Below are positions 29,270 through 32,200 of a DNA stretch of 64,000 nt, piece by piece. The stretch lies in the NCBI RefSeq assembly GCF_028389875.1, contig NC_084668.1:17441993-17505992 (forward strand), written 5' to 3'. Each line of letters opens with the position of its first letter. The first letter of the stretch is position 1. Position numbers and translations under genes: made by a program. The notes beneath the pieces were generated by a model that worked only from the letters and a program-made list of their open reading frames with translations, had not been told where the DNA came from and did not search any database. This DNA comes from Rhea pennata. Taxonomy: Eukaryota > Chordata > Aves > Rheiformes > Rheidae.

Positions 29270-32200
29270 ATGGTGGAGCTCAGCGCCAAAGTCAGCAAGA
29301 CGCTGAACAAGACCACGCCAGGCCTCCAGATCTGGCGAATTGAGGTGGGCACGGGCCGGGCTTGGCTGGGGCACTTCGGGCTCATGGTGGGGGTGGGGGT
29401 TCTCTTCAGTAGGGCCCCAGAGCAGCCCCATGGTGGAGGCACAGTGCTGCCTGGGGGCACCGGCTGGGCACCCATCGCTGGGTCCCTCCAGGCTGCCCCC
29501 ACCCCGTGCCGGGACTCACCCGTGCCCCTTCCTTTCACAGAACATGGAGATGGTGCCGGTGCCCACCAAAAGCTATGGCAGCTTCTACGAAGGGGATTGC
29601 TACGTCCTGCTTTCGGTACGGTGCTGCAGGGTCCCGGGGGGCCAGGGCTGGCTCTGCCCTGCAGAGGGGCTGCAGGGAGGGAGGAGGGTCCTGGCCGGAC
29701 CGGTGTGGGGCTGTGGGGTGCTCTGCTCCCCAGGCCCTTCTGGAGGGGACTGCTCACCCGCAGACACGCAAGATTGGGGATGGCTTCACGTACGACATCC
29801 ACTACTGGCTGGGCCAGGATTCGAGCCAGGACGAGCAGGGGGCTGCAGCCATCTACACCACGCAGATGGACGACCACCTGGGCACCGTGGCCGTGCAGCA
29901 CCGCGAGACCCAGGGCCACGAGAGCGAGGCTTTCCGTGCCTATTTCAAACAGGGCCTCATGTACGTTGGCCACCCAGGGGACCCGCTTCCCAGCGTGGCT
30001 GTCCTCGCCTGCCCTCTTGCTTCATCCCCCCGGCCCTTGCGTGCCCCCCCATGCTGGGGGCCTGCCTTGCATCGGGCAACGGGAACAGCCCTGCCCAGCA
30101 ATGCTGGGGAGAGGCAGGGGGTCTTGGTGTGGCCTCTCACCATCCACAGCTCGCCCCAACGGGTGGGAAGACACCTGGGTTCACAACTCCTTCCCCTCTG
30201 CCACTGCCAGGCCCTGGGCATGTCACTTAACCCAGGGTGACCAAGGCTCACGCTGTGTCCCATCGGTCCCCCCAGCTATAAGAAGGGTGGAGTGGCCTCG
30301 GGCATGAAGCACGTGGAGACGAACACCTACGACGTCCAGCGCCTGCTACACGTTAAGGGCAAGAAGAACGTGGTGGCTGGAGAGGCGAGTTATGGGGCCA
30401 GAGGGGTTCCCCCTACCCAAGCCCTGTCCAGGCCAGGCACAGCTGCACCCACAGTGGGATGGGTGTCAGCTGAGCATCCCCATGGTAACTCCCAGTCAGC
30501 TGTGACCTTTTAGCAGAGATGCTTTTTTGGGGCCAGATTAACGCCAGGCCCCCTCCTCTAGACATAGCTGCCTTCAGTCAGAGCTGTGTGGTAGGAAAGG
30601 CCATGTGGCTCTGCCCCAGAGGTGGCTGCGTTTCCCAGGCAGCGCTCCTACCCATAGGAGCATCCCCAAAAGCCCCCCATCAGGGTAGAGAGGAGAAATT
30701 CAGCCTGGAGACACCCATGGGAAGATGTCCCTGTGGGGCAGGGACCGTGGAGCTGGAGAACCCAGGAGTCCTGCCTGCCTTCAACCTCCCCTTCTACCAC
30801 AGGTGGAGATGAGCTGGAAAAGCTTCAACCGGGGTGATGTGTTCCTGCTTGACCTGGGCCAGCTCATCATCCAGTGGAACGGCCCTGAGAGCAGCCGTGT
30901 TGAGAGGCTGAAGGTACGGCCAGGGCCCTTGGCCACTCCAGGCCTCGCAGCCTGAGGGACACATGGCTGCCCTGGTCTCTGAAAGTCTCTTCCCAATGAA
31001 GCTAATGACCTGCTCCCCTGCTGTGAGCTGACCCATGGCCCTCTCCTCATGTGCAGGCAATGACTATGGCCAAGGACATCCGGGACCGGGAGCGTGGTGG
31101 GCGCGCCAAGGTCGGTGTGGTGGATGGTGAGAACGAGGATGCCTCACCAGGGCTCATGAAGGTCCTCACGCACGTGCTGGGTGAGAAGCAGGATATCAAG
31201 GCGGCCATTCCCGACGAGGTTGTGGACCAAGTACTGAAGACTTCCCTCAAACTCTACCAGTAAGTTGTGGGGATGAGGTTACTCCTGGAAGAATCTGCTG
31301 GGGCAAAGAGTGTTGCAGCACCCTTCTCTGCCATATCCCGGTACCTGGATCCCCACTCCAAGGAAACCTGTGGTTTCTGGCCCATGGGCAGCCCCTCTGA
31401 GGGGACAGGGCCACCTTGAGGGGTATGGGTCCCTAGGGCCAGAGAAGCCCTCGGTGCTGATGGGCTTGGTACCCAACAGCTGGTACAGAGATGCCCATGC
31501 TGATGTGATCGATGTCTTCATACACGGTGGCATGGCCCTGTCCCATCTGACCTCTGCCTTCTTTGTTCCACTGCAGCTACATGTGCTGGGAGCAGGGCTG
31601 GATACAACCCTGATCCAAGGCAGAGCAAGCTGTGAAGCAGGTTATGGCTATGAGAGAGCTGAGATGGGGAAGGGGAGGGGGGGATGCCCAACCTTGGTAC
31701 CCCAATGTGTGTGTGGGGGGGGGGGAAGGGCAGAGGGGTTTCCTTGCCCCTCTCCTAACCCTCCTTCACCTCATCAGCGTCTCTGATGCCAGCGGAAACC
31801 TGGTTATAAAGGAGGTGGCCATTCGACCCCTGACTCAAGACATGCTCCTGCATGAGGTGCGTTGCCCATCCTGGGGATGGAGAAATGCCCAGTTTCCTTG
31901 GCAGCTTTAACCCTTCAAAAGCTGCTTTGGTGGGCTTTGCCCATCAAAGCGGCTTTCGAAGGGTTGAAGCTGCCCTAGGTCCTAATTTTGCTGCTGCTGT
32001 TCCCCTCTAGGACTGCTACATCCTTGATCAAGGGGGGCTCAGGATCTTCGTGTGGAAGGGGAGAAACTCCACCAAGGAGGAGAAGCAGCAGGCGATGAGC
32101 AGGGCCCTGGTGAGTGATGGGACCGGTTATGGGGGGGTGAATCGCAGCAAGCCCTGATGGGCGGCAGGAGCATTACCTGTGGTGTACGGTCCCACACTGC

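Follow-up and report, generated by a model that had tools for sequence, protein, structure and literature searches.

An almost perfect RNA hairpin, consisting of two 36-nt arms and a 3-nt loop (positions 31900-31974, + strand), was found in a 154-nt intron of the villin gene VIL1 of Rhea pennata, and it was probably made by a local template switch during replication, a snap-back which left a perfect inverted repeat that has been decaying neutrally ever since. Positions refer to the window, by which is meant the whole stretch of 64,000 nucleotides that was analysed (contig NC_084668.1, 17,441,993 to 17,505,992, forward strand). A sequence-only reading had drawn attention to the hairpin beforehand, and its coordinates, its placement in VIL1, the length of the intron, the 36-nt stem, the 3-nt loop and the G.U compatibility of three of the four differences between the arms were all reproduced here.

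VIL1 is encoded on the + strand, where 19 exons and 18 introns were delimited and the joined exons gave an open frame of 826 residues, whose product comprises six gelsolin stretches and the villin headpiece. As counted in the alignment, this headpiece agrees at 57 of 65 positions with the solved villin headpiece 1qqv, which we take to be that of chicken villin; together with the mir-26 hairpin described below, this is in line with a bird, though not chicken. The hairpin is situated in intron 7 of the 18 delimited (31857-32010, + strand), a GT-AG intron of phase 0 bordered by exons that join into the open frame, and lies 43 nt after the start and 36 nt before the end of this intron. By the branch-point motif rule a probable branch point was placed at CTAAT (31982-31986, + strand), the candidate branch A at 31985 being 25 nt upstream of the intron end and 11 nt downstream of the hairpin. 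Intron 4 by our own count (30385-30802) is of the GC-AG type (GAG/gcgagt ... cacag), and the other 17 introns start with GT. When a conserved exon of VIL1 was sought by means of a degenerate pattern, one contig matched, in which a 281-aa antisense frame displayed by eye nothing villin-like near the motif, and this match was taken as chance.

In the stem, 32 positions form Watson-Crick pairs, three form G.U pairs on the + strand (31908 T/31966 G, 31923 T/31951 G and 31930 G/31944 T), and the sole mismatch is A.C (31917 A/31957 C). The 5' arm (31900-31935, + strand, 36 nt) is free of CpG and carries CpA at 31916-31917 and TpG at 31923-31924 opposite the CpGs of the 3' arm (31939-31974, + strand, 36 nt), which holds both CpGs of the hairpin (31950 and 31957). 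The loop TTT (31936-31938, + strand) is closed by GGGC/GCCC, and in the RNA fold the stem is extended below by three pairs (31896-31898 with 31977-31979). Within the 5' arm the 11-nt palindrome AAAGCTGCTTT (31918-31928, + strand) was read from the letters, and so was a second, weaker inverted repeat in which GCAGCTTT (31901-31908) faces AAAGCTGC (31918-31925).

That the near-perfect inverted repeat exceeds chance was evident from folding as well as from the search for inverted repeats. Folded as RNA, the + strand of 31890-31985 reached a minimum free energy (MFE) of -67.2 kcal/mol with a z of -11.2, which none of 200 shuffles equalled; the - strand RNA of the hairpin stretch reached -59.8 (z -9.1), and 31890-31985 treated as single-stranded DNA formed the same hairpin at -37.3 (z -8.7). 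Among 10,652 windows of 96 nt (step 12, both strands) the hairpin ranked 14th by MFE, and the 13 windows that ranked better had a G+C content of 0.80-0.94 versus 0.52 for the hairpin window. When 36-nt inverted repeats with loops of 0-30 nt were scanned, the VIL1 hairpin was the best of the whole window with 32 of 36 positions complementary, whereas 60 local dinucleotide shuffles attained maxima of 24-27; the only other cluster with at least 25 of 36 was the mir-26 hairpin (26). The hairpin was absent from the 25 longest of the 35 pairs that were obtained in an inverted-repeat search with a 9-nt seed, presumably since uninterrupted exact complementarity of the two arms extends over no more than 8 nt. 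Elsewhere in the window, an inverted repeat with 24-nt arms of 92% complementarity and a spacing of 81 nt was noticed in A+T-richer surroundings (40921-41049), as well as a quasi-palindrome with 29-nt arms, 72% complementary and spaced by 2 nt, in a very G+C-rich stretch where it may reflect mere composition (20662-20721). Compared over all VIL1 introns, the fold z was -11.16 in the intron with the hairpin and between -2.07 and +1.95 in the remaining 17, and since those lack a similar fold the hairpin is not a general property of VIL1 introns.

The differences between the arms are few, and all four are transitions. At two of them (31917/31957 and 31923/31951) a CpG in the 3' arm stands against CpA or TpG in the 5' arm, as ordinary decay of methylated CpG would leave them. 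These same four sites had been taken in the sequence-only reading as a hint of selection on the fold of the sense-strand RNA, three of the four being G.U-compatible. However, every transition that hits a perfect stem creates a G.U pair when one strand is folded and an A.C mismatch when the opposite strand is, so that three of four on the + strand comes near a coin toss: the probability of at least three of four was 0.31 under random transitions and 0.11 with transitions and transversions at 2:1. Selection on the + strand fold was thus rejected as a conclusion from the G.U count by both neutral models, and G.U-rich arm differences are generally weak evidence for RNA selection, as any transition has even odds of being compatible with the sense strand. 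Four differing sites are too few to exclude weak selection; the differences are compatible with neutral decay.

Selection could nevertheless have acted through splicing, the fold bringing the 5' splice site and the branch point together or masking decoy sites. Consistent with such a role, the hairpin lies wholly between the 5' splice site and the probable branch point, where its omission cuts the distance from 128 nt to about 53 nt, and it is retained when 31827-32030 is folded. However, a tolerated neutral insertion would be expected in the same position, the other VIL1 introns (97-518 nt, nine of them at 97-167 nt) manage without such a fold, and the excess of G.U is not significant, so that a selected splicing structure appears quite improbable. 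Only marginally smaller is the chance we give to the hairpin being a substrate of ADARs, whose nuclear editing of the long duplex would begin at 31917. A duplex paired at 35 of 36 positions with a single A.C mismatch offers the arrangement that ADARs favour. The A at 31917 is, however, directly preceded by C, an unfavoured 5' neighbour for a target A, and the target lies within an intron. As a passive fate, editing by ADARs would be plausible under any origin of the hairpin.

An origin by template switching, which was not among the options of the sequence-only reading, would accommodate both the near-identity of the arms and the manner in which they differ. The nascent strand would have folded back at a short palindrome serving as seed (e.g., GGGC-TTT-GCCC), would then have copied about 36 nt of its own sequence and rejoined the template, so that in a single step two perfectly complementary arms around a 3-nt loop would have resulted. 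Small palindromes inside the arms, such as those described above, could have seeded the snap-back. At a site between the 5' splice site and the branch point the insertion would have been tolerated, and transitions would have accumulated later at four positions, of which two were CpG sites, while the RNA hairpin would fold co-transcriptionally and leave with the spliced intron. We infer the event as well as its direction and age. That the repeat was once perfect and then subject to ordinary mutation is suggested by all four differences being transitions, with CpG facing CpA or TpG at two of them.

Two inverted arms with only a short loop between them would equally be expected of a fold-back or miniature inverted-repeat element, and a fold-back repeat had been among the options raised before. 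Within the window this option found no support, as the best other match to either arm covered 22 of 36 positions and no second copy of an arm was found, for which reason a repeat family was rejected within the window. A target-site duplication was likewise missing: at offsets up to 6 nt the flanks shared nothing beyond an offset 4-nt match, TCCT. Because of the single copy in the window and the lack of a flanking duplication above this 4-mer a mobile element is disfavoured, and a copy of such an element is about as improbable as an ADAR substrate. Fold-back chimeras also produce short-loop palindromes, and an artefact of the library or the assembly was considered for this reason. It would be expected to have identical arms, however, whereas 4 of the 36 positions are unlike between the real arms, two in the pattern of CpG decay, and we regard it as very improbable indeed.

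The template-switch origin finds parallels in the literature. Passages of PMC8794818 describe perfect stems that arose in one event by template switching, microRNA stems which gained mismatches later included, and for great apes template switches were reported, in PMC7954356, to yield perfect inverted repeats often and to raise fold stability. With template-switch mutations as known from the conversion of quasi-palindromes to palindromes and from the four-point model, the VIL1 hairpin shares adjoining, nearly perfect reverse-complement arms, a tiny loop, a single locus in the window and stability as single-stranded DNA. In contrast to switches that were observed as mutations, it is known from one sequence, from which its origin is deduced, and its arms already differ at 4 of 36 positions. 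It also resembles microRNAs of the MIR633 type, which according to passages of PMC8794818 were born by template switching, in being a single-locus hairpin with a proposed perfect start and subsequent mismatches, but differs in its loop of only 3 nt, and small RNAs from it would be hypothetical. In PMC8794818, rRNA hairpins that underwent instantaneous compensatory changes have loops of 3 nt less often (3.5% vs 6.1%); this deficit does not favour the template-switch reading and runs against it, though it concerns the repair of rRNA stems. An old functional stem could also have been re-homogenised by repeated template switching, which counts against this reading. If the template-switch reading is true, the VIL1 hairpin would be a clean and datable case of a long RNA stem created by a single mutation, outside the mammals of the cited cases, and would illustrate the raw material from which miRNAs arise in introns.

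Whether such a stem already serves as a young, unannotated precursor of small RNAs was weighed as well, be it a miRNA processed by Drosha or a two-tailed mirtron, cut by Dicer to duplexes of 21-23 nt; it may well have been born by the same template switch. The stem of 36 positions, 35 of them paired if G.U is included, is close to the typical length of about 35 bp in pri-miRNAs, and UG at 31899-31900 is located at the basal junction in accordance with pri-miRNA rules, both as given in passages of PMC7174388. Two-tailed mirtrons, a class in which neither end of the hairpin is at a splice site, were already proposed in PMC4556696; the VIL1 hairpin resembles them in lying inside a short intron away from both splice sites, and any splicing-dependent dicing of it would be hypothetical. 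A conventional, 5'-tailed or 3'-tailed mirtron was rejected, as the hairpin ends 43 and 36 nt from the splice sites.

Rfam provided 34 weak matches (E up to 10) for the hairpin, 30 of which were to miRNA families, the best being mir-606 with 43.6 bits and an E of 1.2e-8. However, none attained the gathering score, which for mir-606 is 80, and the 34 were scattered over unrelated animal and plant families on both strands. The agreement in the mir-606 alignment was mainly one of pairing, with few letters, and the match was lost when a stretch of 116 instead of 191 bases was searched. Membership in a known RNA family was consequently rejected, the weak matches being non-specific. At gathering score the only match in the window was the mir-26 precursor (21708-21788, + strand, 77.6 bits). 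Further features are at odds with a small-RNA precursor: the loop is only 3 nt long (UUU), and an open apical loop with UGU is absent. CNNC, an optional enhancer which according to passages of PMC7174388 is found 16-18 nt down the 3' basal segment, would be expected near 31980 by our own reckoning of the cleavage site, but in 31965-31995 it occurs only at 31970 and 31991. A literature search retrieved no work combining VIL1, miRNA, intron, hairpin and chicken. Taken together, a small-RNA precursor is unlikely, if not to the degree of the splicing fold. Somewhat more doubtful still is the bolder idea that a small-RNA gene specific to this lineage is seen here shortly after its birth: one template switch would have supplied a perfect stem of pri-miRNA length, which has kept a 3-nt loop and gained hardly any bulges and would already be diced whenever villin is transcribed. 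Villin is expressed in intestine and kidney. When six pieces of the hairpin were sought in full-text literature, the only match in the text retrieved was that of an 11-nt piece in work on plant miRNAs, and a 17-mer taken from the 5' arm recurred exactly in one viral contig, a match attributed to chance.

Under neutral decay after a template switch the divergence of the arms can be converted to an age, more precisely to the time since the arms were last identical, from which the origin may differ. At the rates quoted for bird introns in PMC2946954, 2-3.9e-9 per site per year, 4 differing of 72 sites correspond to 14-28 My (Poisson limits 4-71). If the CpG differences are removed, 2 of 68 sites correspond to 8-15 My (limits 1-53), the 68 being a rough subtraction of four sites that keeps the other CpG positions. 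Neutral decay would accordingly have lasted very roughly 1-70 My, and the hairpin is therefore expected to be confined to one bird order or family.
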